Shown here: one piece after another, positions 27,313 through 47,497 of the stretch | Layout of the letters: each line of letters starts with the position of its first letter | How positions within the stretch are numbered: the stretch's first letter is position 1 | Assembly: GCA_946811185.2 (NCBI GenBank) | Contig: OX328107.1 | Span: forward strand, 14,721,565 to 14,785,564 | Direction: 5' to 3' | Source: Hippopus hippopus | Lineage: Eukaryota; Mollusca; Bivalvia; Cardiida; Cardiidae | Length of the DNA stretch: 64,000 bases | The notes under the pieces: generated by a model | The model's input: the letters and a program-made list of their open reading frames with translations, nothing else | Told to the model about the DNA's origin: nothing | The model's database searches: none | Program-made: the position numbers and the translations under genes

Positions 27313-27344
27313 GTTGACGGTTATAGTTACCAGTATTATAGTAA

Positions 27345-29264: not shown

Positions 29265-29280
29265 AGCCCTGAAAAGGGCT
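29265..29280 (-). terminator. histone-like 3' stem-loop of the 29323-29553 gene
   Basis: AGCCCT-TTTC-AGGGCT on the minus strand, 42 nt after the stop codon. It is followed by AACCA and, about 12 nt on, GAAAGATC. Confidence 0.7.
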
Positions 29281-29322
29281 GTTGGGGTGGCCCTAAAAGG
29301 ACCTGATTTGGAGGTTGTGTTT

Positions 29323-29553
29323 TTAAGCACAGCCTCCAACTTTTCTGCAGGCTGGGCAGCTGCTCGCTGCCCGCCTCTTCAGTCTTTTCAACTGCTGGTT
29401 ATCCAGGTTGAATCGCAGCGAAAACGGTGGTTCATCATCACCATCCCAACATTCGGTTTGTGGGATGATGATCTCCTTCTTTCTTGGTAATTGAGCAAGG
29501 TCCCAAAAGTCCATTTCGCTGACTATAGCTTTCGTCTTTTTTAAATCTTCCAT
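29323..29553 (-). CDS. small acidic protein with C-terminal cysteine cluster
   Basis: 76 residues. The middle has an acidic ECWDGDDE stretch resembling, but not matching, an LxCxE-type pocket-binding motif with its acidic tail (Thr stands in place of Leu, Asp in place of Glu). A basic KRLKRR run and a C-terminal CPACRKVGGC metal-binding-like cluster follow. The 101-residue protein at 30946-31251 ends in a similar CPIC...GCC cluster. The gene has its own promoter (TATA at 29603-29609) and a histone-like stem-loop downstream. Adintovirus-type elements often carry small 'oncoid' proteins at this place; this similarity is of layout only. Function unknown. Confidence 0.7.
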   Translation of the reverse strand: MEDLKKTKAIVSEMDFWDLAQLPRKKEIIIPQTECWDGDDEPPFSLRFNLDNQQLKRLKRRAASSCPACRKVGGCA

Positions 29554-29602
29554 TGCTAGGCGAGAGTCGAAGAAATGATGAATGTATGGAAATAACGCTG
29601 GG

Positions 29603-29715
29603 TTTTATAGCTTTACAGGAGGATTGACCTGGTTGACTCATGACGTCATTTTCTCTTATGTTTTTCCCGCGTCAGCGTTTCATGCTGTTTTGGCTCTTAA
29701 TTAACGTTGTCCAAT
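29603..29715 (-). promoter_or_regulatory. promoter with TATA, AP-1/CRE, E2F and CCAAT motifs
   Basis: Reading upstream from the 29553 start: TATAAAA (29603-29609), AP-1 TGACTCA (29634-29640) abutting CRE TGACGTCA (29641-29648), E2F consensus TTTCCCGC (29663-29670), and CCAAT (29711-29715). The whole block recurs upstream of the next gene but one (30587-30698), and partly at the other end of the element. Confidence 0.75.
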
Positions 29716-29868
29716 CAGAATTATCGTTGTATTTCTAATGGTAAATGTTTATTGTTGATCAATCCATAGTTTGTTACATTTTTTCTTGTTTTGGTCAGAA
29801 AAACTAGAGTTTGACTAGCCTATGACTTTTTTTGATTTGAAAAGAAAGATGTTTCATTGAAGATGGTT

Positions 29869-29884
29869 AGCCCTGAAAAGGGCT
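29869..29884 (-). terminator. histone-like 3' stem-loop of the 29907-30047 gene
   Basis: AGCCCT-TTTC-AGGGCT on the minus strand, 22 nt after the stop, followed by AACCATC and a GAAAC block. Confidence 0.7.
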
Positions 29885-29906
29885 GTTTTTGTGCAGAATA
29901 CACTTT

Positions 29907-30047
29907 TTATCCTCCCCTCTTTCTTTCGATTGATTCCATTGTATCTAGCATTTGCATCAGATGCTCAATTTCATACCTGATATATCTGAAACGTTCTCTT
30001 TCTTCTAACCAGAAGAGCAATGAGAGGAAAAATGTCAATCCAAACAT
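29907..30047 (-). CDS. 46-residue membrane-anchored small protein
   Basis: A start at 30047 gives a hydrophobic N-terminus (FGLTFFLSLLFW) followed by a charged helix and a basic tail. The open frame extends upstream to 30293, but that part crosses the stem-loop and 3' region of the preceding gene and is unlikely to be coding. Function unknown. It lies between two stem-loops, consistent with a separate short transcription unit. Confidence 0.5.
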   Translation of the reverse strand: MFGLTFFLSLLFWLEERERFRYIRYEIEHLMQMLDTMESIERKRGG

Positions 30048-30189
30048 TGTGGGATACTGACTCAGCTTTACGATAGTTAATGGTGAATGAGAAAAATAAT
30101 CGGAGTTTATATGTTTTAGGCTTTTGATTGTAAGTCTTTTGAGTTTTGACAATTTTGAAGAAAAGATAGAACTTTCGTGGTAAATGGTT

Positions 30190-30205
30190 AGCCCTGAAAA
30201 GGGCT
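30190..30205 (-). terminator. histone-like 3' stem-loop of the 30253-30549 gene
   Basis: AGCCCT-TTTC-AGGGCT on the minus strand, 47 nt after the stop, then AACCA and CACGAAAGTTC at histone-downstream-element distance. Confidence 0.7.
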
Positions 30206-30252
30206 GTTTTTTAGAGAGGGATTCAGCTTGAAAATGATTATTCAGTATCAGT

Positions 30253-30549
30253 CTAATCGGTGTCTGACTCAGTCCTTTCAGCGAATTGCTCACGGAAAAG
30301 ACGGTCTAGCTGCTCTCTTTTTGAAATAGCATACTGAAAATACATTTCAAGCGTGCCTTCAATGATCATTTCCTTCATCCGAAGGTTATAACAGAACGAC
30401 CTGTTATTTGATAGCTCCGCCCTCTCGTAACGCTTTTTCACTTTAGCTAAGCGTTGTTGTAGTAAAATGATCTGTCTCTTTGCTCTTCCTAACTGTCGCT
30501 CAGCATCCATCCAAGTGAAACGTCTGTTGAGTGTTGGTCTTGAAGCCAT
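30253..30549 (-). CDS. 98-residue basic helical protein, unknown
   Basis: Rich in Arg/Lys and Gln, with a long predicted coiled coil (about residues 16-50: R-x2-QIILLQQRLAKVKKRYERAE) and an acidic tail ESDTD. No cysteine cluster. Promoter with TATA at 30587-30593 and the duplicated AP-1/CRE-E2F-CCAAT block; stem-loop terminator at 30190-30205. It is a stand-alone accessory gene near the left end of the Polinton and I do not recognise a family. Confidence 0.65.
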   Translation of the reverse strand: MASRPTLNRRFTWMDAERQLGRAKRQIILLQQRLAKVKKRYERAELSNNRSFCYNLRMKEMIIEGTLEMYFQYAISKREQLDRLFREQFAERTESDTD

Positions 30550-30586
30550 TGTGAAAATGAGATGTATGGAAAATACATCGCAGAGA

Positions 30587-30698
30587 TTTATAGCTTTTCA
30601 GACGGATTGACCTACTTGACTCATGACGTCATTTTCTCCTATGTTTTTCCCGCGTCGGCGTTTCATGCTGTTTTGACTCTGAATTAATGTTGTCCAAT
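30587..30698 (-). promoter_or_regulatory. duplicated promoter: TATA, AP-1/CRE, E2F, CCAAT
   Basis: TATAAAT (30587-30593), TGACTCA (30617-30623) plus TGACGTCA (30624-30631), TTTCCCGC (30646-30653), CCAAT (30694-30698). About 240 bp (30588-30830) is closely similar to 29600-29840, so the promoter was duplicated while the genes it drives differ. Confidence 0.75.
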
Positions 30699-30876
30699 CA
30701 GAATTACCGTTGTATTTCTAATGGTAAATGTTTATTGTTGACCAACCCGTAGTTTTGTTACATTTTTTCATGTTCGGGTCAGAAAAACTAGAGTTTGACT
30801 ATACTATGACTTTTTTAGTTTTGAGTCTTCTGACAATTTTGAAGAAAGAAAGATAGAACTTTCGTGGTAAATGGTT

Positions 30877-30916
30877 AGTCCTGAAAAGGACTGTTGGGTT
30901 AGCCTTAAAAAGGGCT
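30877..30916 (-). terminator. two histone-like stem-loops after the 30946-31251 gene
   Basis: On the minus strand the first (30916-30901) is imperfect. The second (30892-30877) is perfect, AGTCCT-TTTC-AGGACT, followed by AACCA and CACGAAAGTTC. The first starts 29 nt after the stop. Confidence 0.65.
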
Positions 30917-30945
30917 GTTTTTTCGTCTCACGTTGTTCTCCACTT

Positions 30946-31251
30946 CTAATGACAACATCCGAAATTTGCCTGGCAAATAGGGCATGCTTCAACTCTTTTT
31001 CTGATTATCATTGTTCCATTATCCAAAGTAATCTTCCTCCCAAATTTGACATCAACCAAAACAACATCAGGCGTTGTCTTTAGAAATAGCTGAACTAATC
31101 TTTCGCCGAGATCTTTGTATGGCTGTGTTATACGTTGTAGTTGGGTTTGTTCCTCCGCTCCTACGACATGAGTGTTTAGTAGCAATATCTGCTGACCGGT
31201 ATTTAGATAGACTCGGAGAGCCTCACGCAGTTGATAATTTATCTCCTCCAT
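30946..31251 (-). CDS. 101-residue protein with C-terminal CPIC...GCC cluster
   Basis: An alpha/beta-looking body with a hydrophobic DVVLVDVKFG strand and a C-terminal CPICQANFGCCH that could bind zinc. The terminal cysteine pattern is shared with the 76-residue protein two genes downstream. A TATA box (CGTATAAAA, 31340-31346) lies 90 bases upstream, and two histone-like stem-loops follow the stop. Unknown accessory protein. The upstream sequence lacks a clean E2F site (TTTTTCCCATCC instead). Confidence 0.65.
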   Translation of the reverse strand: MEEINYQLREALRVYLNTGQQILLLNTHVVGAEEQTQLQRITQPYKDLGERLVQLFLKTTPDVVLVDVKFGRKITLDNGTMIIRKRVEACPICQANFGCCH

Positions 31252-31339
31252 ATTGATACTGCTTCCGATTATTGATACTGCTTCTGAACTGCTCGAGAAC
31301 TGAGAGTAAAAATGGTGAATGTATGGAAATATCGCTGGG

Positions 31340-31346
31340 TTTTATA
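31340..31346 (-). promoter_or_regulatory. TATA box of the 101-residue gene
   Basis: TATAAAA on the minus strand, embedded in the same context (gtaaacgTATAAAACCCagcg) as the TATA boxes at 29603 and 46416. This suggests a common core promoter. Confidence 0.6.
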
Positions 31347-31525
31347 CGTTTACAGGAGGATTGAAAATTTTTAAAGAGCTCCGACCTGACGGAAAGCACA
31401 TACATTTTTCCCATCCTACGTTTCATGCTAATATAGCAAAAAGTTATGACCCGATGTATGGGAAGAATGTAGACAGAACAAGTCTTGGGAAAAACAGAAT
31501 GAAGAACTCTGTTGTTTTTTTGAAC

Positions 31526-31554
31526 TTTTTTATTGAACAGAACTGAACAATGAA
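31526..31554 (-). terminator. shared 3' block with AATAAA, after protease gene
   Basis: On the minus strand TTCATTGTTCAGTTCTGTTC runs into AATAAAAA. The same 28 bases occur at 39830-39857, downstream of another gene. It is a conventional polyadenylation-type 3' end, unlike the stem-loop genes. Confidence 0.6.
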
Positions 31555-31640
31555 CATATTTACAATGAACATATTTTACAATGAACTGTAAAAAAGACAA
31601 AAAATGAAATATTCACAATGAACTGTTAAGAAAAAGAAGA

Positions 31641-32154
31641 TCATTTTTTCACTGTTTGTGAGGATTGAGTCTCTGAAATTTTCTTGTATAGAATTCCGTA
31701 GTGTTGATTAAACCACAATGATACATCTCGATCGTTTCGATGGTGTCCCGTTGAGAGGAATTTCTGTTGAAGATATTTCTGTATATTGTATCCTCTAGCA
31801 ACAGCATCCAATACAAAGATACAGTAAAGTCCGCAAACTTTACCCTGTAGACTCTGAAGAGTTTGTCGATTGTATCTCCACGTTGAAGAATGATTGTCTA
31901 AAAAGGTTAATGATTTCTGGCTCAAGTGGTGGTAGTCCATACGGATCAAAGTATAGCACATTGTCATTATTATCAAATATCACTGCCACCCAGTGTTCTC
32001 CTGGTCTATTTGATCTCTCTGTATTCACAATGTAAGCTTTCACATGTTTGGGTTTTTGTCGAGGTAACTGGTCTTTTGCACAGACTTTCGCCTGTAGATT
32101 TTTTATCCAGGTTCCGTGATCCAATATGTATTGAATTTCAGAAGTATACATCAC
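31641..32154 (-). pseudogene. adenain-like cysteine protease, frame broken
   Basis: Two overlapping open frames (32154-31840 and 31976-31641) share the features of the Polinton/adenovirus maturation protease (C5 family). The first has the catalytic His in GEHWVAV and the acidic residue in YFDPYG; the second has the catalytic Cys in a KVCGLYCIF block. The reading frame changes somewhere between about 31860 and 31910. Total about 170 residues. The enzyme would cleave capsid precursors during virion maturation. It is followed by an AATAAA-type 3' block and preceded with 9 bases spacing by the 114-residue gene. Confidence 0.85.
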
Positions 32155-32163
32155 GTTTTTTTC

Positions 32164-32508
32164 TTAGTCATTTTCTTCCCAGGATTGTTTTACTTTGTCA
32201 CACCAGTATTGTAAGCACGACTCCGTGATTTCAGATAAAATGTTTTGTTTTATATTTTGCCATAATCTGTAGGCTTCCACATAGTCACTGTCATCGAGTT
32301 TCATCTCCATTAGTTCAGGATACCATTTTTCCATGATTTTGTATGGATTTAATTCCATCATAGCTTTTTCTATGAACATATCTGTATGTTCTTGTCTGTT
32401 CTTGAATAAACACAGATCGTGCTGTATTTGACTGGGGTGATCCACTTGACATCCGTAACACTGGTTGCGAACTTCACTGGCAATAAGATTTTTTATTTCT
32501 TCAATCAT
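32164..32508 (-). CDS. 114-residue Cys/His protein, Polinton-associated
   Basis: The N-terminal third has CYGCQ...HPSQ...HDLC, a possible zinc-binding set; the rest is helical and acidic. I have an impression of similar short proteins (C-x2-C-x2-DHPSQ) next to the protease in mollusc Polintons, but cannot confirm it here. Ends ten bases before the protease frame, so they may share a transcript. Confidence 0.6.
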   Translation of the reverse strand: MIEEIKNLIASEVRNQCYGCQVDHPSQIQHDLCLFKNRQEHTDMFIEKAMMELNPYKIMEKWYPELMEMKLDDSDYVEAYRLWQNIKQNILSEITESCLQYWCDKVKQSWEEND

Positions 32509-32642
32509 ATGTTTTTCGAAGCTATTGTGAATGTCATTTTACCGAGTAGAGATGCACTTTGAAGTGTGATATTTCACTTTTTCTGCTTCTTCTCTCAGTG
32601 ATATAGCAAATCTGAGTTCTTGCATTGTTTTTTACTTCTCTT

Positions 32643-32658
32643 AGCTCTGAAAAGGGCT
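32643..32658 (-). terminator. histone-like 3' stem-loop of the major capsid gene
   Basis: On the minus strand AGCCCT-TTTC-AGAGCT (one mismatched pair), 28 nt after the capsid stop, followed by AAGAGAAG. It is the only stem-loop attached to a structural gene. Confidence 0.6.
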
Positions 32659-32686
32659 GTTTTTTTCTGATGTAATTTTTCCGAAG

Positions 32687-33984
32687 TTAGTAATCTGTGA
32701 TGATTTCTGTCAAACTGTTGATTTCGATCTGATTGTCAAATTCGGCAAAAACAATAACGTTGATCACTGTTGCCAAGGCTTGGGCGAATTGAAGCTCAAT
32801 TCGAAGACTTCCAGTTTTTATAGGATGAAGTTGACCTTCTTCACTGCCTTGATCAGCTGTCAAATCGTAACCCCACAAACAGTATCCACCAGCATAATCT
32901 TCTTTGGCAATATCAAATGATTTATTGAGTCCAAAGGCTGAGACAGCCTGATACATTGACAAATATGATTTCAAATACAAGCCATTTTCAAAGTCAGGCT
33001 CAAAGGGTCTGTTATGAATACTGTGACCATTACATGATACATCTATTTTTGACAGATTGAAATGTTGGAAGAAAAATGGATTGGTATCATAACCTCCATT
33101 ATAACTAGCATTTGTTACCATTGCAATGAAAGCACGTTTCGGAAGCTGTCCTTGAAACAAATGATCTTCAACTTTAGACTGAAGTCCATTGCCGATGGTA
33201 AAAGTCTTTACTTCTACTCTACGGATAGGAATTTTCATGTTTTGCTGAGAAATAATTCGATTTAGATCATTCGCAACAACAGGTAACAATTCAACATTTC
33301 GCATATGCAGACTGACTGTTTCCAGTACAATTTTTGCAGCTGGTGCACCAGTACCTCCCGTAAGACAAAAGTTTGATGAGACTCTGTTTAATCTAAGTCT
33401 GATTTCAACTCCGTTAGGTAAATATTTTTCTTGCTGAAATAGATCAAGATGCAATCGTCCGAAAAGCTCTGCAGTTCTGCTTAGTGTGATTACACCTATT
33501 CTTTCTCGTAATCCTTCATTATCCCCATCGTGGTTGAGTGCTCCGAATTGACCACTGGTGTCTTCGACCCAGCTTTCAAAAACGTAGTCTTGCAGTCGGA
33601 ATTATATGACAGAAGATTTTCGATATATGCTCTGTATGGATAGGTGTCTGAATTACTGTTGATTAGTTTATTATTTAGATACAAATCGACACTGCTAAAC
33701 ATACTGTGCATGAAATTGTTTACAGGGGCTACATTTGAACCGGCATCTAAATTGCTACCATCTGCTTTAACGATTTTGAATTTGATATACAAATACGATT
33801 GTGACAAATCTGTCCAATGTTCGGTTTGAGGTGGTATGATGAATTCTATCGGTGAATTGTTTGTCAAAGATGATATTGGAAAATGTTCAACCCATTGGCT
33901 TTCTTGCATTGTTGTCAATGTAGGTGGTACAGAAAGAACATTGAGTTTTGATTTACTGCATTCGCAAGATCCGTTTTGCATCAT
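32687..33984 (-). pseudogene. major capsid protein (double jelly roll), one frame break
   Basis: N-terminal half in the frame 34032-33496 (likely start MMQNGS at 33984; the upstream 16 residues overlap the preceding gene), C-terminal half in 33454-32687. The blocks PIEFIIPPQTEHWTDLSQSY and DLYLNNKLI in the first half, and the FNLSKIDVSCNG region and C-terminal strand in the second, are those of the Polinton double-jelly-roll hexon-like capsid. Total about 430 residues is close to family size. The frame changes near 33485-33500. A histone-like stem-loop follows the stop. Confidence 0.85.
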
Positions 33985-34015
33985 TTTCGAAAAAGATTTT
34001 TCAAAAGATTTTTTC

Positions 34016-34396
34016 TCAATCAAATATATCAAGAGGTCTTGGTCTAGTGTAATGATTTCTTTGTCTTTTATTAATGATCTTCCCCCTGTGAGATCGAGAA
34101 GATAAATGACGTGTCTTTTGTGATTTTCGTTTTTTTATCCCAGGTATTAACTGTTGCGCTAAATTATGAACAGATTGTTTTCCCCGCGAGACTGCAACTT
34201 TTTTGGGGTTTTTACCACGTAAAAAGATATCTTCTGCTGCACGTATTCCTTGTTTGATTCCTTCTTTTTTCATAGCATTAAAACCAGATTTGACCAAGGG
34301 TTTAAGCAATGGAGTCACTGTTTTAAGTGCTGATCTAAATAGGGAACCTAATCCATACCCATACTGATGTTTTACGCCACGATAAACTGGCAGCAT
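34016..34396 (-). CDS. small virion protein, pVI/pX-like
   Basis: 126 residues. It begins MLPVYRG followed by a Gly/Tyr-rich stretch (YGYGLGSLF) and an amphipathic helix, then a basic body with many Lys/Arg. This layout is typical of a conserved Polinton minor protein lying between penton and major capsid, comparable with adenovirus pVI/pX (membrane-active or core). It overlaps the extended capsid frame by 17 bases. The C-terminal forty residues are low-complexity and basic and may be affected by a frame change. Confidence 0.65.
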   Translation of the reverse strand: MLPVYRGVKHQYGYGLGSLFRSALKTVTPLLKPLVKSGFNAMKKEGIKQGIRAAEDIFLRGKNPKKVAVSRGKQSVHNLAQQLIPGIKKRKSQKTRHLSSRSHRGKIINKRQRNHYTRPRPLDIFD

Positions 34397-34435
34397 TTTT
34401 TGTCAATGTATCAGTTTAATTATTTCAAATATTTT

Positions 34436-35332
34436 TTATTTTTTCTGTCTGAAATGTAACTTGACGATTGTCTTACCAGTAATGAAATGAAACGATATGC
34501 CAGAATCCCCCGTTATTTGAATGTGAATAGTATCGAAATCAGATTTCGAAACGGGGATATAATGCGGTAATGTAATATCATGGTTGATATGTTGGGCTTC
34601 ATAATTATTTTCAACTGATTCGGTTGGTTTGAACGGTAAAACACGAAGTATGGGAGCAAATGTATCACCCACTATAGTGTGTTCAGCAGTATCTGAATAA
34701 ACAAACAGATGGTTGTAGCCAGCATCAATATTAGGAGTGTATTTAAATGCATTTAAAAATCTTCTACCCGGATAAATCACCTCCTGTTGAAATTCTGGCG
34801 ATCCTCCCAGTTTTAAAAACAGCGATGAATGGAATTTCATTCCGGTTTTTGTAATATTTCTCATTGCAAGTTTCGGACGTTTGGATGAGGTTGAATAGCT
34901 AATAGACAGTAGCATTGAATTCTTTTGAAGGATACCCGATAGGTTATTTTGAACCAATTCATCGATCACCTCTATAATATGCTTTGGTGAAGTGTAACTA
35001 CCCGGTGGAAAAGTAAATAGAATTGACCATTTTTCTGCTCTACCTTTATCGTCTCGCCTTAATACAGCTATCTCCATATTATCTCTTTTTTTATCTACCG
35101 CTGCTATTGCATTGTATAAACCGTTATCTGCAGTTATAATTTCGAACTTTGCTTCTTGTTCACTTACGTTTAAAAACTGAGAGGGGGTAATAAGTTGAAC
35201 TAATGCAACTTCCCAATTTTCCCTATCAATATGAACTGTCTTTGGTAAATGAACTTTAAAATAGCACTGTGTGTTGTTCGGATAAAGGTTTATGGAACTA
35301 TCGCTAGGTAGAGTAACATAAAACGAATTCAT
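34436..35332 (-). CDS. minor capsid (penton-like) protein
   Basis: 298 residues, intact. It starts MNSFYVTLPSDSS followed by NLYPNNT, the hallmark N-terminus of the Polinton minor capsid protein (single jelly roll, penton). A WEVALVQ strand and later beta-rich segments fit a jelly-roll fold. It would occupy the five-fold vertices. It lies 39 bases upstream of the pX-like gene, in the usual Polinton order. Confidence 0.85.
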   Translation of the reverse strand: MNSFYVTLPSDSSINLYPNNTQCYFKVHLPKTVHIDRENWEVALVQLITPSQFLNVSEQEAKFEIITADNGLYNAIAAVDKKRDNMEIAVLRRDDKGRAEKWSILFTFPPGSYTSPKHIIEVIDELVQNNLSGILQKNSMLLSISYSTSSKRPKLAMRNITKTGMKFHSSLFLKLGGSPEFQQEVIYPGRRFLNAFKYTPNIDAGYNHLFVYSDTAEHTIVGDTFAPILRVLPFKPTESVENNYEAQHINHDITLPHYIPVSKSDFDTIHIQITGDSGISFHFITGKTIVKLHFRQKK

Positions 35333-35343
35333 TTTTTAATATT

Positions 35344-35621
35344 TTATTTTTTACTGGCAATGAAATCAAGTCCTGGTTGTTTTTGTTCTGTCTTTGTGAA
35401 TTTTAACCCCGGAGATGGGAGAATATATCCGAGTGAACTACTTAACAGTATCAACCACAATTCACTATGGAGGTTGCAATAATTGCGTAAATGACTAATA
35501 TCTGTGAAATATATGTAAACTGATTCTTTGGAACACGATTTCCACAGCAGCTGTAATTTTTAGTACTAACACTATCGACACTTTCTGTCGCGCACTCAAT
35601 GTTTGACTGTGAATTCATCAT
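35344..35621 (-). pseudogene. small transmembrane protein, frame broken
   Basis: From ATG at 35621 the minus strand reads a short Ser/Thr-rich N-terminus, a CCGNRVPKNQF motif and a hydrophobic segment (about residues 38-55), then stops. The second half, with SLGYILPSPGLKF, continues in another frame to a stop at 35344-35346. Total about 92 residues. I believe the CCGNxVP + membrane + GYILP pattern recurs beside integrase in mollusc Polintons (from memory, not checked). Function unknown, possibly a membrane or virion-lipid factor. Confidence 0.6.
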
Positions 35622-35648
35622 AAATGTACTGTCTTTTTATAAGATTTT

Positions 35649-36767
35649 TTATCTATAAGATTTTTCCTTCAAAGACACCAAATGGGATTCTGGTATCCAG
35701 CTTTGAAATTTTTTTGGATAGCCTTTCCAATCGACTTTTATTTCTTTGATTAATTTTTTGCCCTCACGCCTTGTACGTCTATCAAGAACTGAATCAATTT
35801 CATAGACTTCATCATCTTTTATTAATTGAAGTTCGTATTCATAATAAGTTCCCAAAATTTGTTCACCCTGTAAATCTTTTATTTTATAGGCGATAGGTGA
35901 AAATGTCTTGTTAACATGAGTGATTTCAAATATTTCTTGCGTCCAATTTGGTAAATAGCCCTTATCAAATGTACGTTTTGTTTTATTGATCCGAACACGA
36001 TCTCCAATTTTGAATTTTGGCTTTTTCGTCATTGCGATTGTCGATAATCGAGGATACAGATTTTTCGAAACCTCTGCCTCATTTGATTTTGTTACCATTG
36101 CAGGAGATGTTTTAATACTTCTGTGAAAAGTATGATTGTAATTCTGAACTAAAGAATTCAATACGTCAATGTAACGTCTTGTTTTCTTGTACGTAAAGTA
36201 TTTCCACATTCTCGTTTTTAAAGTTCGTTGAAATCTTTCAACGAGGCTTGCTTTTGTCTCTGGATTTTCGGTGGTGAAAAAATGAATCTGACTCTTTTTC
36301 AAGTATTGTTGAAACAGTTTGTTTTTGAATTCCGAACCTTTATCTGTTTGAAGTGACAATGGTTTTCGTTTTGATTTCTGAACAATAGATTGAAATGCTC
36401 GAATCAAAGTTTTTCCCATTTTATTTGGAATAGGGATAACCCATGAAAATCTTGAAAACACGTCAATTACACAAAGTAAATATTTCTTGTTATCATTTTG
36501 TTTTGCTAAATGTTGCATGTTGGCCAAATCAGCTTGCCATTGATAATCTATACCACTTACAATAGTTTTTCGTCTTTTGAAACGTCGACGGATTGGTTTG
36601 TGTAAGGTATAGGTGGATTCTTGAACATCTTTGTATCTTATTCCTTTCAAAACAGATTTTGCAGCGTAATACAATTGCTTTATTCCATTAAATGCGACAG
36701 TACTTTTGGGATCATAAAACAACTTTCTTAACACGTAATCAAGTTTAGGCTTTACCAGGGGTCCCAT
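35649..36767 (-). CDS. retroviral-type integrase with chromodomain
   Basis: 372 residues, intact. The rve core holds D80 (QADLAN), D142 (QTDKGSEF) and E177 (LVERFQ), i.e. D-x61-D-x34-E. An SH3-like DNA-binding segment follows (FKIGDRVRI), and a C-terminal chromodomain spans about 325-370 (YEIDSVLDRR...WIPESHL). The N-terminal zinc site of retroviral integrases is not obvious. It inserts Polinton DNA with a 6-bp duplication, matching CACAAA here. It overlaps the upstream 289-residue gene by 16 bases, implying co-transcription or tight packing. Confidence 0.93.
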   Translation of the reverse strand: MGPLVKPKLDYVLRKLFYDPKSTVAFNGIKQLYYAAKSVLKGIRYKDVQESTYTLHKPIRRRFKRRKTIVSGIDYQWQADLANMQHLAKQNDNKKYLLCVIDVFSRFSWVIPIPNKMGKTLIRAFQSIVQKSKRKPLSLQTDKGSEFKNKLFQQYLKKSQIHFFTTENPETKASLVERFQRTLKTRMWKYFTYKKTRRYIDVLNSLVQNYNHTFHRSIKTSPAMVTKSNEAEVSKNLYPRLSTIAMTKKPKFKIGDRVRINKTKRTFDKGYLPNWTQEIFEITHVNKTFSPIAYKIKDLQGEQILGTYYEYELQLIKDDEVYEIDSVLDRRTRREGKKLIKEIKVDWKGYPKKFQSWIPESHLVSLKEKSYR

Positions 36768-37621: not shown

Positions 37622-37639
37622 AATTTAAAAATTATGAAA

Positions 37640-38019
37640 TTACAAGGCCTTAAGAGCTCCTCCTATTCCTCCGATAACGGCTTTTCCTAACAATGGTAAT
37701 AATGCAGGACCAAGCAAATGAAGAAATCCACCTTTTTGATTTAATATTTCGAAGCTAAACGTCTGAGTTGCTGCCTACTTGAATACAATTTCTTCTTCTG
37801 AGGTGATGATAAATGTACATTGCCTTTTAAAACATTATGACAGCATTCCGATATGCATTTTATCACTTCGGGTGACGAATCTTTTACAAGTTTTTTACGT
37901 GTTTTTGGTTTAGCCTGTATCATAGCCATAACCATTGAACCATGTTTTTTATCAGAGGTGTTTTCTTCTTCATGTTGACTTGATCTCGATTTCGGATTAA
38001 ATGATAATACAACTTCCAT
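37640..38019 (-). pseudogene. hydrophobic pX-like virion protein, frame broken
   Basis: The first 92 residues (38019-37741) include the block VIKCISECCHNVLKGNVHLS followed by basic KKKLYSSRQQLRRLA. A stop follows, and the remaining part, a glycine/leucine-rich QKGGFLHLLGPALL stretch ending at 37640-37642, is in another frame. The combination of a basic segment and a short Gly-Leu hydrophobic tail is a common Polinton/adintovirus minor protein (PX). The frame changes near 37745-37750. Confidence 0.7.
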
Positions 38020-38079
38020 GTCACTAACATTTATAGCTAATGTAATGTTTTTGTAGACAAAATTTGTTGTTAAAATTTC

Positions 38080-38992: not shown

Positions 38993-39096
38993 GTTTACTC
39001 ACGGATGTGTATCATAAAAATGATTTATACTCAAAAATGTAATTCTCTTTTAAAGCAAGAACTTTTGCATAAAAAACTTTCTTAAAAGAAACTTTT

Positions 39097-39768: not shown

Positions 39769-39829
39769 TTTTTTACTTTACTCTTTAAAGGCTAATGATA
39801 AAATGATAACATCATTGAAAATGAAAACA

Positions 39830-39857
39830 TTTTTATTGAACAGAACTGAACAATGAA
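39830..39857 (-). terminator. shared 3' block with AATAAA (second copy)
   Basis: Identical 28-base block to 31526-31554, ending in AATAAA on the minus strand. It lies 160 nt after the stop of the 40021 gene, within an AATGAA-rich stretch (39830-40015). Confidence 0.6.
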
Positions 39858-40020
39858 ACATTTTTTGCAATGCAGCATAAAAAATTTTCTTGACAATGAA
39901 ACATTTTTTACAATACAGCATAAAAACATTTTCTTGACAATGAAAAAATTCACACCGAAATATTTTTTCACAATGAATTATTCACAATGAATTATTTACA
40001 ATACAGCATATAACAAATTT

Positions 40021-40674
40021 TTACAATGCAAATTCGCAAATACCACGAGTTTCACATTTGTCTTCATATTCAGTAATGTCTTTGTGCAATTGCTCATAAC
40101 CCAAAAACATTGTATATTCACTATCCATATCGTCGAAATCTCGTAGTCCCATGAATGGAGCAACATGTCTATAAACGTCTTTTGTTGAAAGAGCTGAATA
40201 TACTACTTCTTCTGTAACATCTCTATCAAATAGAATATACCCTGCCATGGTTTCCATTGATTCTCCGTAGGAATGAACAGATCCTTTTTTGTAGCTTAAG
40301 TAAAAGTCAAATAGAACTGATTTCATTTTCAGAACGTTAAGAAAACTTTCTTCTGTTGTTCCTATGATAAAAAATGTCCATCGACTTGTGGATCGAAACA
40401 GCTTAATAATAACATTGTCTTTCAAACAGCTATCTGCTAAATAAGTTTTGAGAACGAGATCTATACCCGAATCGTCCACCATCATCGCAATAAAGTTGAT
40501 TATAGCATACACTTTGTAGGACTTTTCTCCTTTTGCAACCCACTTAAACAATTTGCCGATCCAAATTTTCACACAGAAAAATTTAATGTTAAGCTGTGTT
40601 CGTTCATCAAGCGTATGCTGTCGAACAAATTCTCCATAAATTTTTTCACGTAGTTCTATTGGTAACGGCAACAT
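40021..40674 (-). CDS. about 217-residue Polinton protein, unknown
   Basis: The frame opens at 40734, but a TATA box (TATAAAA, 40768-40774) is so close that the ATG at 40674 (MLPLPIELREKIY) is the better start. That N-terminus resembles a short F-box-like helix pair (LP-x-ELREKI), which is only a hint. The rest is mixed helix/strand with a KWVAKGEKSYKVY stretch and an acidic C-terminus ending ICEFAL. It lies between polymerase and ATPase. I do not recognise the family. Confidence 0.6.
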   Translation of the reverse strand: MLPLPIELREKIYGEFVRQHTLDERTQLNIKFFCVKIWIGKLFKWVAKGEKSYKVYAIINFIAMMVDDSGIDLVLKTYLADSCLKDNVIIKLFRSTSRWTFFIIGTTEESFLNVLKMKSVLFDFYLSYKKGSVHSYGESMETMAGYILFDRDVTEEVVYSALSTKDVYRHVAPFMGLRDFDDMDSEYTMFLGYEQLHKDITEYEDKCETRGICEFAL

Positions 40675-40800
40675 GATTGTTATTTTTGACCAATGGCTAA
40701 TATTTTTTCCCGACTTACTTTGACTGATCGCCACACAACAATGTGATATAGAATTATTTTCTCAAACTTTTATAACCATAGGGTACAGTGTCAGCACCAT

Positions 40801-43800
40801 TTACAATAACTCTCTTGGTGTATACAGAGCGAAACGTTTTTGTTTGTGGTTTGTGGTTCTATCTCTGTGTCTTTTAATTCTACAATCATACTGAATTTTG
40901 ATTTCTATTGTGCGATCCAAAGCACATTTTGAATATGTATCGAAATTCACCACCTGCTTTGTATTGTAATCCAGAGTAATCCCCTTTACTTTACATTTGC
41001 TTATCTCTTCTCCATCTTTTGTTTTCATTTTGTAAGCATAATTCTTAGGCCCAAGTCCTCTGAATTGAGTAATTTTACAAGTAGGCTCTTCATCAGTCCA
41101 TTTTCCTAACCGGCTGTTGATAATGGGAGGGTTCCATAATTCAGGGTCATGAATTTACATACAACTATCTGTATCAAAATACAGAACTCTATCTTTTAAC
41201 TTTTCAAGAACGCTGTACAATTCCAACCTTGCATAAGCTGTTACGTAAGACCCTACTACCACATTGGCTGTAGCGTGGGTATCAATATGTTACAACTTTG
41301 ATTCATAGTTAACCAAGATGAATGGACAGTCCTCGTCAAAGATTTCTACATGCTTTACAATGAAATTGGGATTGGTGACTAATTCAAAATATTTAGACGG
41401 GTCACTGATGTATTCCGTCTGGGACATTTTTTCACGCTGAGCTAATTTTCCCCAAAGACAGTTCAACATAATCTTAGCAAATGACCTTCTCCCAGGATTT
41501 TTTTGAATACAACTTGGATCCGCCTTCTCATATTCACAAACGAACTGATCTTTTTCTGACTCTGATTGACACCAATCTGGATAACCACTGGCTTCTTGCT
41601 TAATTTTCAAGAAATTGTCCACATAATGTTTAAAGAACTGATCTGACACAGAATTGAAATGCCAAATTTCATACACTTGCAATAATCGATAACCGCAGTC
41701 AAGAGCTTTGAATAATTCAAAAGTAACCCAAGTTCCGACCAAAGCCCTCTCTTCTTCACCATGGCTACAAATGCTTGAACTTTCTTCTGCACATATCATA
41801 CAGAGTGGAAACATCATTTTGTTGTTACAGTGAACTGGGAGAACGGGGTGAAACAAATCAGTTGGAGGCAAAACTTTGCATTTGATTAACCCCTCATATT
41901 GTCGAATATTGTTCATGTCAATATTCTCAGCAGACAAAATTTCTGGCTGACCTACAGGATAGGATTTGTGTTTACAAACATAAGGGTACAGAGAACAGAT
42001 ATCAATGTACTTGATTTCCTTCTTGCTTTTTTCATCAACATCATAACCAATTTTTATTGCATTACATCTTCCCCCAGACAAACCATCCCTCGGATCGATA
42101 GGGTCCCAATGTGGATATAACTTTTCAATGAGTTTTTTGTACTCTTTATCCTTCATCTTAGCATCGAAATCGTGCTCCCAAATGTACACTACATTATAAC
42201 CCATTTTTTCGATATCTGCTATACGTTCAAAAGTACGTTCGTACAATTCAGACATGGGTTCCCCATTAATAGGATTGATCTGTTTTCGATCTGTATAGCA
42301 TACAGGACAACCATGATACAAATCCCCAAGAAATTCATAAACAGTGTTTGATTGACGGTGAAAACCATCTACACTATATCTCCCGATTTGAACTTCCCCA
42401 CCATTTTTTGCATGCTGGATATTAATACCTTTTTCCTGGGCTACGCTTTGAACCCAGCGTATCGCTTTCATAGAAAAGCGACGTCTGGATGAGTCTTTGC
42501 TTGAAATGATAGCTATTTGATTTTCTGGCAAATATTTGCTTCGCCAGACCTTGTTACAGGCGTCTGCAATGGTAATCGCCTCTAAAAATGGACAAATGCC
42601 ACCCTGTTCAATAAACAGCTTTCTGAATTCAGCACACCCTCGTCTAAGGATATTAACATCTGACCTACAGTACAATTCCATCTCCTTCTGAAAATTGAAT
42701 TCCTCACCCTTTTGAACTTTGTCATTATACCAAACTATGAATTTTGACCTAGCCTCTTCAGGCATTGAGTCGGGTTTGTAATAAGACATATCCAAGTAAG
42801 GGCCAATGTAACTCCAAAATTCATCTGTATTTGCCCAGTGAGGAAAGTAACCTTTTTTCATTTCTTGAAGACCAAATGTGGCTGGAAATTTTGCCAAACC
42901 AAAGCTCATGAAATTGAAAGAATCGATCAGACGCACACCATTCACTTCTAACTTCATAATATTGTTTCCATTCATGATCAATTTTGGAAGTTTTAACCCA
43001 ACTTTGACAATATAGTCAAGAATGAACTGGCCGTCATAACCTTTGAAATTATGGGCAATAGCCGTGACTCCTTTATGATGTTTTGAAAAGAGCCACTTGC
43101 AAAATTGACTCAAAGTTTCTTCACCTTGAAAAATAACTTCCCTACCCTCTTCAAATTCACTACATGTAGAACAATGAAAATCAAGTGATTTATCGATACA
43201 ATCACCACATGCTCTGTGTGCAATACAATAATTCGGGATGTGTACCCCGTGTCTTGTTTGCATTCAAAATCAAAGAAAATGAACTGTGGTTTTTTGACTA
43301 CAGAAGAACTCGTCTCGTCATTGCTGTCATGGTTCAACTTACATTGGTAAGGCTGAATATAGCATCGATGAGAAAAGTTAACAATTCTCTTACAGATATG
43401 ACACCTTTTCTTTCCATTGCAAACATGATTTTTCTTTCTGACAAGATATTGCACACCACATTTCGAACAGAGTTTCACTAATTCACAAATGGATTTCTTT
43501 TCTTTACCTTGAACAATTCTGTGATTTCCAAAGCATACAGCACTAAAAAATCGTCTACAGCAATAACTGCAAACATATTCTTTGAATTCTGATGGACATT
43601 TTCCTTTGCGGTAATAACCTTTGCAGATATTTGAACAAACATGACTTTCCCGCTGAGAGTAACCCACATCACAGAACTCACAATAATATGCACAACAAAA
43701 AAAACCTTCGATAGATTTGATGTAGTCATAATGGTTTTGATGAAAGTAAAAATGTATGATCTTACAATTGGTTTTCACTTCTGGATGTTCAAATATCTTT

Positions 43801-44660
43801 CCCGTTTTGGAATGTTGATCGTGAACTTTAATGACATAGCCTTTTTCATACAAGAATGCTTGAATTTTTTTGTATTCGTCAATTCCTACAGGCTGTGTTG
43901 GTGAAACTCCAGCTTCATTCAACAATTTCTCAGCTTCAGTCTTTTGAAGAGGACGGTTTGAACGACGAATACGATCCCATTTCCTATTCCATTCTTCGTT
44001 GTTTTCACGTTTATTGTAGCAAATTCCCACAACAACGGCTCTTGCAAAACATAGTTGGTCATGATTGTCAATTTGAATAATGGATTTTTTCTTCTTGGCA
44101 AAAACCTTTGAATCTAATTCTGATACTTTGTATTTCTTTTTTCCGCCACCACATGGAGGTATTGTATGTGTAATGTCAAATGTCATGAATCCATCGTTCA
44201 AGACGAAATCTGTATTCCATTGTAAAACTCGTTCAATTTCATTCAACATAGTTTCACCTTGCAACTGTTCTGTAATTAAAAAGGGAATATGGATCCCCAT
44301 TTCCAACGAAGGATGATTGATGCTAATTCTAATCATGTCCGTCGGGTTAGCATTTAACTTTCGAATGATTTCATGGGTAACATCGTCAAATAATCCAAGC
44401 AGTCTCTGAGGTGATAATTCTTCAAATTTCTTAAAACTCGCCGTCAGCACATGTGATTCTGTTCTAAATTTTCTTGACTTCTTATTACCCCTTTCTGTTA
44501 AATCATATAGACTTTTCATGTCTAAGGTAGAGTTGATACTTTCATCGTCACTGTCACTTTCTTCTTTCAACGGTCTAGTTTTTTTCTTTTTTGTTGGTGG
44601 AAATACCTCATCGTCACTTTCGCTGTCTGAATAGGTTATTATTCTTTTTCTTTTACCCAT
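40801..44660 (-). pseudogene. protein-primed type B DNA polymerase, broken
   Basis: About 1285 codons. The frame 44660-43110 has an acidic/basic N-terminus (nuclear-localisation-like KKKKTR), then an N-terminal domain with many CxxC pairs (zinc fingers, about residues 320-445) and exonuclease motif I FFDFEC (D near 463). After a frame change at the C4 run 43245-43248 the frame 43263-41290 has further exonuclease motifs, palm motif A DICSLYP (near residue 420) and motif B KIMLNCLWGK (near 598). A TAA stop at 41290 precedes motif C YFDTDS (about 41165-41182), and a second TAA lies at 41155-41157. The end is at 40801. Type B polymerases with TPR inserts replicate Polintons from protein primers. 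Dead as read. Confidence 0.92.
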
Positions 44661-44716
44661 CGTTTTAGCTCTGTGTGAAAAGACAATAATGCAGGAAGTG
44701 AGAAAAAACTAACAAT

Positions 44717-44751
44717 TTATATAACCTCTCCGTTGCAACAGTGTATAAATA
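44717..44751. promoter_or_regulatory. divergent promoter pair of polymerase and zinc-knuckle gene
   Basis: TATATAA faces the polymerase (minus strand, 44717-44723, 57 bases from its start) and TATAAATA faces the plus-strand gene (44744-44751, 70 bases from its start). The 160-base spacer thus drives both directions. Confidence 0.6.
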
Positions 44752-44819
44752 GAGACGGCGGTTGTGAAAATCTAATCATTCTTCTGCTCAATCTCAGACA
44801 GTACATTTGATAAAAGAAT

Positions 44820-45662
44820 ATGAGCGAGTTCAAGCTGCAAAATACATCACCACTTAGAAAGAGGGTGCATCTGTATGTTAATCCATACAGCCACGATTAT
44901 GAGGTCAGCAATATTCCATCAAAGTATCATGTTAAACATAACGGAAACTACGTGGGATCATTTTTATCCCACCAACATTTAGAAGAAAAAGATGTTTACC
45001 GTACTACCAGATACAGAGTTTTGGATCAAGCGACGGTCGACAAACGATATGGGGTGAATGGTGAGAGAACAAATATTTGTTTTACATGCAACGAAGCAGG
45101 ACATTGGGCCAAAGAATGTCCAAAAAAAGAAAATCAGACAGGAACAATTGTTTTTGTCTACGTGAATCCACACAGTCATGACATCGAAATTTCACCATCG
45201 TTTTACAACGGTGTCAGTCTCCAACATATGAAATTCGTCGGGACACTAAATTCATTCTGCAGTGAAAATACATGGAAAAAAAGTTCACCACAAGCTACAT
45301 CATCCATTGAAACTCAGACCGTAGATATACAGTCCGACACAACAGATATCAGCGATTCAGAAATCTGTAAAATAGCAGATGATTTAGAGACAATACGAAA
45401 AAATCTGCACAAACAAAATCTCATAGATTCCACAAAAAACGAATTTTCTGCAGAACCGGGTTGTTCGTACGGAGAGGAAAAACAGCAAAACAACGAAAAG
45501 AAGAAAAAACGGGTAACAAAGAACTGTTTCTTTTGCAAATCAACAAAACACGAGGATAAAATCTGCCCAGATATGGTATTAAAAACCAATGAAAGGAGAA
45601 GAAAACGTAAAACCAAATGTGAATCTGACATTCCGAAGAAAAAAAGGAAACATACTGAGTGA
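44820..45662 (+). CDS. two-zinc-knuckle protein with internal duplication
   Basis: 280 residues. Two CCHC knuckles with exact C-x2-C-x4-H-x4-C spacing (starting CFTC near residue 87 and CFFC near 238) are like retroviral nucleocapsid knuckles. A motif YVNPxSHD-x-E occurs twice (about residues 19-29 and 113-123), each with flanking beta-like residues, showing an internal repeat of about 94 residues. The C-terminus is strongly basic (ERRRKRKTK, PKKKRKH), probably nuclear. Transcribed divergently from polymerase. AATAAA at 45802-45807 could end it. Likely a nucleic-acid-binding replication or packaging factor; the family is not recognised. Confidence 0.75.
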   Translation: MSEFKLQNTSPLRKRVHLYVNPYSHDYEVSNIPSKYHVKHNGNYVGSFLSHQHLEEKDVYRTTRYRVLDQATVDKRYGVNGERTNICFTCNEAGHWAKECPKKENQTGTIVFVYVNPHSHDIEISPSFYNGVSLQHMKFVGTLNSFCSENTWKKSSPQATSSIETQTVDIQSDTTDISDSEICKIADDLETIRKNLHKQNLIDSTKNEFSAEPGCSYGEEKQQNNEKKKKRVTKNCFFCKSTKHEDKICPDMVLKTNERRRKRKTKCESDIPKKKRKHTE

Positions 45663-45669
45663 AAAAGAT

Positions 45670-45810
45670 TTCAACACAATATTGAATTTAAACAAAAAAG
45701 ACTGACTTGATTTTTCATTCATTTTTTGTCTTTACAGTTCATTCATTTTTTGTCTTTACAGTTTATGACTTGATTTTTCATTGTACATAAGTTCTTTTGA
45801 AAATAAAAAA
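45670..45810 (+). terminator. 3' region of zinc-knuckle gene with repeats and AATAAA
   Basis: Two tandem copies of ttcattcattttttgtcttt-acag (45715-45765), then AATAAA at 45802-45807. A closely related phrase lies downstream of the protease gene (minus strand, 31560-31625), so it is a shared 3' motif of the non-stem-loop genes. Confidence 0.5.
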
Positions 45811-45911
45811 AAAACATAAAATAATTACTTCTTACTTTTGACTTTTTCTAGTTTTAACTTTTTTACTTTTGACCATTTTGAAGAAAGAAAGATCTTTTCT
45901 TGGAGATGGTT

Positions 45912-45927
45912 AGCCCTGAAAAGGGCT
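45912..45927 (-). terminator. histone-like 3' stem-loop with best downstream element
   Basis: AGCCCT-TTTC-AGGGCT on the minus strand, 32 nt after the stop of the 45960 gene. It is followed by AACCATCT and CCAAGAAAAGATC (45902-45890), close to the CAAGAAAGA type of histone downstream element. Confidence 0.75.
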
Positions 45928-45959
45928 TTTTAAAAAGGATTTCACAACAACATCGAGGT

Positions 45960-46166
45960 CTACGACTCTTCTAGCCGATCCACTGGGATGATTTCACACC
46001 CACAGTATTCACAGCAAATCGTTGAACCTTCATCATCATCGTAAAATCCTTCATCTAGATCTGGACAGTTATGTTTCTGTCCAAGATACTCCAGGATAGC
46101 GAAACATTTCCCACAGTCTATCTGACACCTGCTTGCGCAGTGGGGGCAGACAAGAATTCGAACCAT
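45960..46166 (-). CDS. 68-residue cysteine-rich zinc-ribbon-like protein
   Basis: Start at 46166 (MVRILVCPHC) rather than 46202, because a TATA box lies at 46208-46214. Four cysteine pairs: CPHC, CQIDCGKC, CCEYC and CGC, separated by an acidic DLDEGFYDDDEG stretch, suggest two metal sites around an acidic loop. It has an E2F/AP-1 promoter and a histone-like stem-loop like the left-end accessory genes. Unknown function. The acidic plus Cys layout recalls viral pocket- or E3-binding proteins, but no LxCxE is present. Confidence 0.65.
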   Translation of the reverse strand: MVRILVCPHCASRCQIDCGKCFAILEYLGQKHNCPDLDEGFYDDDEGSTICCEYCGCEIIPVDRLEES

Positions 46167-46207
46167 CCTGAGCAAATATGATTTTTTATGTAAAAATATC
46201 ACCGGTT

Positions 46208-46274
46208 TTTTATAGCTTTACAGGAGGATTGACCTACTTGACTCATGATGTCATTTCTCCTATGTTTTTCCCGC
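46208..46274 (-). promoter_or_regulatory. promoter of the 68-residue gene: TATA, AP-1/CRE-like, E2F
   Basis: TATAAAA (46208-46214), TGACTCA (46239-46245) abutting TGATGTCA (46246-46253, one change from CRE), TTTCCCGC (46267-46274). Very similar to the left-end promoters although 16 kb away. Confidence 0.75.
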
Positions 46275-46369
46275 GTCGGCGTTTCATTAACATTGTCCGA
46301 TTGAATCGATAGTTATATCGGTGTTTTTTCACCACTCCTAATTCAGTGTCACACAGTACAATCCTGGTG

Positions 46370-46422
46370 TTTCCCGCCAGGTCCGCGCTCTTAAATTTTC
46401 AATCCTCTGTAAACGTATAAAA
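46370..46422 (+). promoter_or_regulatory. promoter of the plus-strand coiled-coil gene: E2F and TATA
   Basis: TTTCCCGCC (46370-46378) and TATAAAA (46416-46422), followed by a leader (acgttatttccacacattca) nearly identical to those of the minus-strand genes near 29553 and 31251. It stands back-to-back with the promoter at 46208-46274. Confidence 0.75.
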
Positions 46423-46532
46423 CCCGACGTTATTTCCACACATTCATCATTTCTTCGATTCTCAGCTAACGATCACTTCGAAAGCAGTATCAATATTCGG
46501 AAGCAGTATCAATATTCGGAAGCAGTTTCAAT

Positions 46533-47128
46533 ATGGAGTACAACTTAGATGAAATCAACTTGGACGATTTCCTACCAGTGGAAAACAATGGAGACGTTCT
46601 TTCATCAGTTATAAATTCGACAATCATCAATCCATCGACGGTGTTGGACAACATTTATGAAGAGGTGAAACAGTTAAATTCAAAACAAGATTCCGTGATG
46701 GCTCGGATCTTAGAACAACTGGAGACTTTAAACAAGCATTTGGAGGAGATTAAAACTTTAAACACAAACAGCGAACAGCTCAGTAGAAATATTGAGACAC
46801 TACGCCAACAGAGTCAGCGCATTTCACCAGTTCCTGTGAAGATCCCTGTGGAGTTTGACTTTGATAAAACCAATCTTCACAAGTTGGTGGACTCTACCGT
46901 TTTGTTGTGAACAAAAATCAGCCAAAGGAAAAAAAACCAAGAACAACAAAACCAAGAAAAACAACAAAACGGAAATCAGAGGAAGACGATAGCCATCTTC
47001 ACAAGAAACAGCGAGTTGATCAAAAGAGACCTACACCGATAATGACAGGCCAGGGCAAATACGGGAAAAACATTGATAATCTCGATGACCTCATAATCCC
47101 GAAAAAGCCAAAGAAAAGCTGTCAGTAG
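46533..47128 (+). CDS. acidic coiled-coil protein with basic tail in second frame
   Basis: Frame 1 (46533-46910, 125 residues) starts with an acidic DEINLDDFLP stretch and has a long heptad coiled coil (about 45-95). It stops at 46908-46910. A second frame opens there without an ATG (46907-47128, 73 codons) and is strongly basic (PRTTKPRKTTKRK, KKQRV nuclear signals). The two parts probably belonged to one protein of about 197 residues, linked by a frame change at the GTTTTG run near 46899-46904, by splicing, or by recoding. Two histone-like stem-loops follow. Confidence 0.6.
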
Positions 47129-47154
47129 AGAAAAAACAATCTCCAAAACAAAAA

Positions 47155-47497
47155 CAGCCCTTTTCAGGGCTAACCCAACAGTCCTTTTCAGGACTAACCA
47201 TTTACCACGAAAGTTCTATCTTTCTTCAAATTGTCAATCTTCTTTTCTCTCAGAAGAGTTACACTCCAAAGAGTAAAAACTCAGAAAAAAGTCTAAGTCC
47301 AACTCAGTGCTCAGGCTTTTAGAGAGAGAAATCATCCATAGGTGAAGAAAAACTAAGTTCAACTCAGTGATATAGGGATAAATTCCTCAGGGTAGGCAAC
47401 CTGGGCTCTGTAGGGTAGGTAGCGTAGGGCTGTACAGGGTAGGTAGCGTGGGACGCGGCGGATCGGCCGCGTCCCTACGCTACCTACCAATACTACT
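47155..47497 (-). repeat. Polinton right terminal inverted repeat
   Basis: Inverse of 28692-29100, lacking the extra 80-bp tandem copy. Outer hairpin at 47438-47488. Confidence 0.92.
47156..47195 (+). terminator. two histone-like stem-loops at right TIR
   Basis: AGCCCT-TTTC-AGGGCT (47156-47171, 27 nt after the stop at 47128) and AGTCCT-TTTC-AGGACT (47180-47195), followed by AACCA and CACGAAAGTTC. Mirror of the left end, in the sense of the plus-strand gene. Confidence 0.7.

Follow-up and report, generated by a model that had tools for sequence, protein, structure and literature searches.

Histone-type 3' stem-loop units behind small genes of a Polinton in Hippopus hippopus

The question raised by this locus is why a mobile element should carry, behind genes that do not encode histones, a stem-loop of the kind that ends replication-dependent histone mRNAs. 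The locus lies in a window of 64 kb, the whole stretch of Hippopus hippopus DNA that was analysed (C12:14721565-14785564 in a host assembly of 1.068 Gb and 34 contigs; plain coordinates below are window positions), and the element concerned is the following:

28692..47497, no strand: Polinton/Maverick element of 18,806 bp with ends AGTAGTATTGG...CCAATACTACT and the 6-bp target-site duplication CACAAA

Along 61 positions, seven units in this element match the 3' ends of histone genes from the host itself. In our reading, to which we assign a probability of about 0.8, the Polinton unit of ~65 nucleotides (nt) is a complete copy or mimic of the host replication-dependent histone mRNA 3' end and would be processed as such.

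The element is a Polinton. The CACAAA duplication is perfect and flanks both ends, terminal inverted repeats are present (segments 29026-29099 and 47153-47226 at 96% identity), and domain matches identify an rve+Chromo integrase, an A32-type ATPase (Pox_A32), a family-B DNA polymerase (DNA_pol_B_2) and an adenovirus-type C5 protease (Peptidase_C5), the last as a fragment of 22.2 bits, barely above the cut-off of 21.3. It seems to have decayed in part: in the map of open reading frames (ORFs), the frames of the protease and of other core genes appear split. Using the ATPase query and its 27-row alignment, no DNA relatives of the element beyond the host genome were found in IMG/VR and GTDB contigs.

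Twelve stem-loops were located in the window, ten strict and two imperfect (30901 and 32643). All ten strict SLBP-type hairpins lie within the Polinton, compared with a mean of 0.04 and a largest count of 1 in 100 Markov sequences; the pattern AGYYYTTTTCARRRCTAACC (AGYYYU-UUUC-ARRRCU-AACC) likewise has ten matches in the window, all inside the element, and none in 100 shuffles. Ten of the twelve are fully paired (one through G-U), and the G-C second pair and U-A closing pair are invariant in all twelve, as in all six copies of a second locus treated below (L175/L190). The 5' flank is AAC at ten stem-loops, CAC and AAA at the other two. AACCA follows directly at seven (29057, 29265, 29869, 30190, 30877, 45912, 47180), AACCCA at four (29081, 29105, 30901, 47156) and AAGAGA at 32643, in agreement with the preliminary description of this DNA, which had excepted the capsid copy and the weaker tandem copies. 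That description gave coordinates and strands correctly for every stem-loop it listed and omitted three copies (29057, 29081, 29105); the stem form it reported needs correction for 32643, which has a mismatched pair and neither AACCA nor a downstream block, and for 30901, with its UUUU loop and one mismatch.

At seven sites the stem-loop and AACCA are continued into a longer unit by a GAAA block, starting 12-13 nt past the stem in every case. Five of the seven also have WTGTCA at +35 to +40, and the other two have GTCA; outside the element, a GAAA block and a TGTCA-type box occur jointly at 0.09% of positions. Constant among the seven units are the 5' AA, the stem, the loop and AACCAT, with the exception of pair 3, which is C-G or U-A, both sides changing together. 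The linker between stem-loop and GAAA block varies, and in units 29869 and 45912 divergence has affected the downstream part and spared the stem-loop.

Host histone genes were examined in two 10-kb pieces of the histone cluster and at the H2A.X locus. A protein search with the host's H1 brought up 3173 relatives; named entries in the top 120 come from molluscs (Haliotis, Dreissena, Mytilus, Aplysia and others), the annelid Capitella and bacterial MAG entries, a result that points to a lophotrochozoan host. Six histone types (H1, H2A, H2B, H3, H4, H2A.X) have one common 3' layout, consisting of AAC/AAA, stem-loop, ACC or similar, GARA-like block, pyrimidine-rich stretch and (A)TTGTCA or GTGTCA. 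The GA of the purine block and the TGTCA are invariant in all six types, and the AAC 5' flank is the form found in five of them.

L166:676-738, 1842-1901, 5368-5430, 6399-6459, 8129-8187 and L168:5266-5326, minus strand: host histone 3' ends with the common TGTCA box

In these six types the box stands about 30 nt after the stem-loop, past the end of the 46-position RF00032 model, and in three of them ATTGTCAAT, an interrupted palindrome, is present.

A covariance model built from the six host histone ends only (R1) returned 19 matches in the window at E<=10, of which the seven units scored 36.0-53.3 bits (E 8.4e-9 to 3.8e-5, rough values from a short calibration, the evidence being the gap in score) and the other 12 at most 15.9 bits. 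With H2B left out of the model (R2), the real H2B end scored 55.3 bits, the Polinton units 35.7-54.6 and the histone ends within the model 66.8-72.4. The top-scoring Polinton unit therefore equals a genuine histone gene of this genome in histone character; the lowest-scoring one clearly falls short of that. The match covers the whole module, purine block and (A)TTGTCA box included, which gives the histone interpretation firmer support than the preliminary description could have known of; we regard it as the probable one for these stem-loops. The copies and units are as follows:

29011..29078, minus strand: histone-type 3' unit in the left terminal inverted repeat, stem-loop 29057-29072, R1 47.0 bits (E 1.8e-7), counterpart of 47180
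29081..29120, minus strand: two tandem stem-loops, 29081-29096 and 29105-29120, AACCCA after each, not directly past a stop
29128..29253, minus strand: several tandem repeats consisting of the downstream block only (GACGAAAGTTCTATCTT..TCAAATTGTCA), no stem-loops among them, read from the sequence; R1 matches at chance level cover 29147-29187 (13.2 bits) and 29190-29221 (15.3 bits)
29222..29286, minus strand: histone-type 3' unit past the ORF of 76 amino acids (aa) at 29323-29553, stem-loop 29265-29280 at 42 nt from the stop, with AACCA, GAAAG and ATTGTCA, R1 46.2 bits (E 2.6e-7)
29831..29890, minus strand: histone-type 3' unit past the 46-aa ORF 29907-30047, stem-loop 29869-29884 at 22 nt from the stop, with GAAAC and without WTGTCA, R1 36.0 bits (E 3.8e-5)
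30145..30211, minus strand: histone-type 3' unit past the 98-aa ORF 30253-30549, stem-loop 30190-30205 at 47 nt from the stop, R1 51.7 bits (E 1.8e-8)
30829..30898, minus strand: histone-type 3' unit past the 101-aa ORF 30946-31251, stem-loop 30877-30892, R1 41.7 bits (E 2.4e-6)
30901..30916, minus strand: imperfect first member of this tandem pair, UUUU loop and one mismatch, 29 nt past the stop of ORF 30946-31251
32643..32658, minus strand: degenerate stem-loop with one mismatch, without AACCA or downstream block, 28 nt past ORF 32687-33304 (a presumed capsid piece), no R1 match; it looks decayed
45868..45933, minus strand: histone-type 3' unit past the 68-aa ORF 45960-46166, stem-loop 45912-45927 at 32 nt from the stop, with GAAAAG, and TGGTCA in place of TTGTCA, R1 38.7 bits (E 1e-5)
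47156..47171, plus strand: first member of the right-end tandem pair, 27 nt past the stop 47126-47128, AACCCA after
47174..47238, plus strand: histone-type 3' unit nearest to the host histone model, stem-loop 47180-47195, R1 53.3 bits (E 8.4e-9), R2 54.6 bits

Across the terminal inverted repeat, 29057 and 29081 are the counterparts of 47180 and 47156.

The Rfam model RF00032, run on the window at E<=10, matches the seven units and nothing else, at 23.5-26.7 bits (E 0.0025-0.04; 26.7 bits for 29265-29280), and relaxing the filters over 21 kb added one chance-level match at 44938 (15.9 bits, E 9.4). The host histones themselves score 37.9 (H2A.X), 35.2 (H4), 33.5 (H2A), 32.4 (H2B), 31.5 (H3) and 30.0 bits (H1), so that four of the six types stand below the gathering cut-off of 34 bits. 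In the host genome at least 74 RF00032 matches were counted, 72 of them in the histone cluster C15:40.57-41.47 Mb, a lower bound obtained by scoring 75 of 305,864 first-look candidates. An isolated histone-type stem-loop was also seen on C8 (L169:5072-5087, plus strand; RF00032 31.4 bits, R2 29.0 bits), with no ORF of at least 60 aa in the preceding 250 nt.

As to placement, seven reading frames have their nearest stem-loop in the sense of the gene and 22-47 nt past the stop; in the five host histone genes measured, the corresponding stop-to-stem distance is 28-39 nt. The placement described earlier, 20-50 nt after a stop and in sense, is thereby upheld for these seven frames; the three omitted copies are exceptions. 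In the 27-nt case the stop belongs to a second frame, 46868-47128, which has no ATG ORF of its own and overlaps the ATG ORF 46533-46910, which means a shift or break in the reading frame at this point. Under a rule calling for an ATG ORF of at least 40 aa with its stop 15-60 nt upstream, six of the seven positions qualify, compared with a background of 8-10% of positions. Occurrence on both strands had been taken as a sign that the stem-loops track transcription; this is weak evidence because the plus-strand copies belong to the inverted repeat, and the discriminating copy is 45912, which is close to the right end, yet oriented with its own minus-strand gene.

Stem-loops are present at seven of the 21 gene ends examined, mostly behind small ORFs, and the earlier wording 'many Polinton genes' was too wide. 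Among the other 14 ends, perfect stems of at least six pairs within 120 nt are lacking at 12, and those at the remaining two have 0-1 G/C in the arm. AATAAA follows within 200 nt of the stop at four of the 14, namely the protease piece (106 nt), the 289-aa ORF (67 nt, within the integrase frame), the 217-aa ORF (183 nt) and the 280-aa ORF (139 nt). The histone interpretation applies mainly to small accessory genes, and the element may use two kinds of 3' end, histone-type for these and ordinary for some others.

The small genes share further features. Within 170 nt upstream of ORFs 29323-29553, 30253-30549, 30946-31251 and 45960-46166 (minus strand) and 46533-46910 (plus strand) there is a common CAATCC..TATAAA-type block, which is found at five of the six small stem-loop genes, the 46-aa ORF being the exception. 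Three of these upstream regions also contain TGACGTCATGAGTCA or TGACATCATGAGTCA (a cyclic AMP response element, CRE, plus an AP-1-like motif). Neither the block nor the CRE/AP-1-like motifs are present within 170 nt upstream of the ATPase, integrase or penton-like ORFs. The products of ORFs 29323-29553 and 30946-31251 (minus strand) have a similar motif, CPxCxxxxGC, at the C-terminal end; for the 101-aa ORF no relative scored among 5.8 billion proteins (one candidate had shared words).

As a control, R1 was run on 20 host stretches of 10 kb (200 kb; 17 on C1-C17 and three more on C12, two adjoining the window). The single match above 17 bits reached 49.5 bits in stretch L175 (C6:10.008 Mb), the maximum in the other 19 being 16.6 bits. 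L175 has protein matches to the window in a polymerase piece (94%) and the adjoining 516-aa ORF (88-91%), and the next 5 kb (L190) contain a mirror-image end with an equal R1 score. At both ends of this C6 Polinton locus the unit is a stem-loop triplet ~50 nt past the same stop of a homologue of the 101-aa ORF, whose frame is broken there; the unit stands behind the same gene end in both Polinton copies. The middle stem of the triplet, AGUUCU/AGAGCU, is a new variant that is still paired. The C6 locus is rearranged, with matching pieces 70-97% identical to the window, and its ends seem to be long and built from numerous ~60-nt tandem repeats (L175:5700-8250, L190:4320-5000), the window element having only a few of these.

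If the units work as their likeness to histone ends suggests, the host SLBP would bind the transcript hairpin with its second-pair G and UUUC loop. Recruitment of the U7 small nuclear ribonucleoprotein would fall to the GAAA-type block downstream, probably together with the (A)UUGUCA box. The pre-mRNA would be cut just past AACCA, leaving an mRNA that ends at the stem-loop without poly(A). CCA stands at the place of cleavage in all seven units, and the spacing of the purine block is host-like. In histones, according to the available text of two papers, SLBP requires the G of the second pair (G7-Arg181; PMC10388802), and the downstream element pairs with U7, the cut leaving an mRNA without poly(A) (PMC9756948). 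Processing of the Polinton mRNAs by U7 and SLBP is likely on this comparison, the U7 step being the least secure part of the proposed mechanism. The small, probably early genes would then be expressed in the manner of histones, chiefly during S phase. SLBP and the machinery for histone processing are plentiful then, and the element would be replicating its own DNA at that time.

Several observations weigh against this reading. The first stem pair is A-U in all 18 Polinton copies of the two loci and G-C in all six host histone types. The units miss the RF00032 gathering cut-off, and a default scan shows nothing. Stem-loops 29057, 29081 and 29105 sit 202-250 nt past a stop and not directly after it. 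Covariation across the 18 copies (seven distinct) is weak: 95.2% of cells are paired and two pairs have changes on both sides, a number reached by 148 of 500 shuffles, as the covariation score is by 29 of 500. Pairing of the downstream region with U7 stayed within shuffles in 13 of 14 comparisons (z -1 to 1.2; one at -2.1), the U7 5' ends used being those of human and sea urchin. AATAAA lies beyond the stem-loop at three stem-loop genes, 153 nt (46-aa ORF), 189 nt (capsid side, inside the next ORF) and 209 nt (101-aa ORF) after the stop, and polyadenylated ends at these genes are possible; it is also possible that these hexamers act as a fallback or occur by chance in AT-rich DNA. In the 20 host stretches and the next 5 kb a single other Polinton locus was seen, itself rearranged, and the partly degraded look of the window copy means that it may be silent. 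The whole case has been made from DNA sequence.

The degraded look of both loci fits a different history, in which a single capture of a host histone 3' end by an ancestor was followed by recombination among cassettes, spreading copies that have no current function. This would also account for the units repeating one another over ~45-77 nt of common sequence, and for the promoters and inverted-repeat pieces, which are shuffled as well. It accounts poorly for a stem, loop and AACCA that stay constant though the linker before the purine block varies, for the unchanged stem-loops of 29869 and 45912 beside diverged downstream parts, and for a sense and distance kept at seven different reading frames; we consider such a relic unlikely.

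Virophages and mimiviruses follow a hairpin rule in which hairpins of varied sequence past the stop mark polyadenylated 3' ends, and Polintons are related to virophages. That kinship, together with hairpins close past stops, would suit a hairpin signal of the element's own, unconnected with SLBP or U7. As a rule for all genes of the element it is disfavoured by the 14 gene ends out of 21 where no comparable hairpin is present. Moreover, the signal is sequence-specific and fits the host histone genes along 61 positions. Searched with its AACC-type flank, the stem-loop pattern had no match in IMG/VR and GTDB contigs, and none of the 158 bare hairpin cores found at 157 loci in IMG/VR has A[AC]C next to it. 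An Rfam scan of 20 of the 157 loci returned two RF00032 matches of 19.4 and 17.9 bits; the one locus with two cores (L021) was set aside, as, judging by the ORFs, it seems to be a tailed-phage contig whose tandem repeat is unrelated. A signal private to the element is accordingly given very little probability, and we hold it just as improbable that the stem-loops are a subterminal DNA repeat serving replication or packaging, with the RNA structure as a by-product. Tandem stem-loops at the inner edge of both terminal inverted repeats, and at both ends of the C6 locus, would agree with such a repeat, but the internal copies 29869, 30190, 30877 and 45912 follow genes, and 45912 points with its gene, against the nearby right end.

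Outside the Polinton, the window contains frames of a Ty3-type long terminal repeat retrotransposon (gag, protease, reverse transcriptase/RNase H and integrase) at 1413-8418 (minus strand) and a DEPDC5-like host gene piece at 54542-55042 (minus strand). Immediately left of the element, long inverted repeats lie at 27104-27632, with sub-threshold matches to microRNA families.

Should the units be processed as host histone ends, a Polinton with a host-type module on non-histone genes would be a natural second user of the histone mRNA pathway; this would give a direct reason for expression of the element alongside DNA replication and would make it a test bed for which parts of the histone signal matter. 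We think it fairly probable that a whole class of virus-like elements took over the host histone 3'-end pathway for non-histone genes, such that small early mRNAs would lack poly(A), be made and translated in S phase and be destroyed at its end, with many copies placing a load on SLBP and U7, and that TGTCA would belong to the histone 3' signal of this lineage as an additional element not yet described. Whatever the fate of that proposal, a TGTCA box at this distance past the stem-loop in all six host histone types calls for explanation.

The preliminary description knew of no report of such ends in Polintons, and no paper joining Polinton with SLBP, or Polinton with 'histone stem-loop', was found in the literature searched. 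Among the matches listed, no title or beginning of an abstract reports histone-type ends on viral or transposon genes, and the main text of a survey of adintoviruses and relatives (PMC11071296) contains neither 'stem-loop' nor 'polyadenyl'. The statement has to be qualified by PMC12220804, in whose available text six Rfam histone 3' untranslated region stem-loops are counted at the gathering cut-off among 8,300 polinton-like virus genomes. As that scan used the gathering cut-off, the present Polinton units would be missed by it.

In its integrase, family-B polymerase, A32 ATPase, C5 protease, 6-bp target-site duplication and inverted repeats, the element resembles Polinton/Maverick elements and adintoviruses. 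It shares with the polinton-like viruses and virophages of PMC12220804 the occurrence of one Rfam family in Polinton-related elements; unlike the present analysis, the main text of that study, as far as available, gives the count only ('histone' once), with no position, gene, host comparison or discussion. With the hairpin rule of mimiviruses and virophages the Polinton units have in common that a hairpin after the stop would mark the 3' end, and they differ from it in that a single histone-type sequence, conserved, recurs behind some of the genes. In the available text of PMC12775136, metazoan histone mRNAs figure as a unique class: they end in a stem-loop and have no poly(A) tail, unlike every other eukaryotic transcript. 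Those of Lucina pectinata have the usual stem-loop, with purine-rich elements nearby in four genes (PMC6210712, as available). To this replication-dependent histone 3' end the Polinton units correspond in the 6-bp stem, the U-rich 4-nt loop, the G-C second and U-A closing pairs, the AAC 5' flank, A(A)CC(A), the GARA block, the pyrimidines, TGTCA and the position 22-47 nt past the stop; they differ from it in the A-U first pair, an extra A after the stem in six of seven R1 alignments, the tandem stem-loops and repeated downstream blocks, and their place on non-histone genes of a mobile element.

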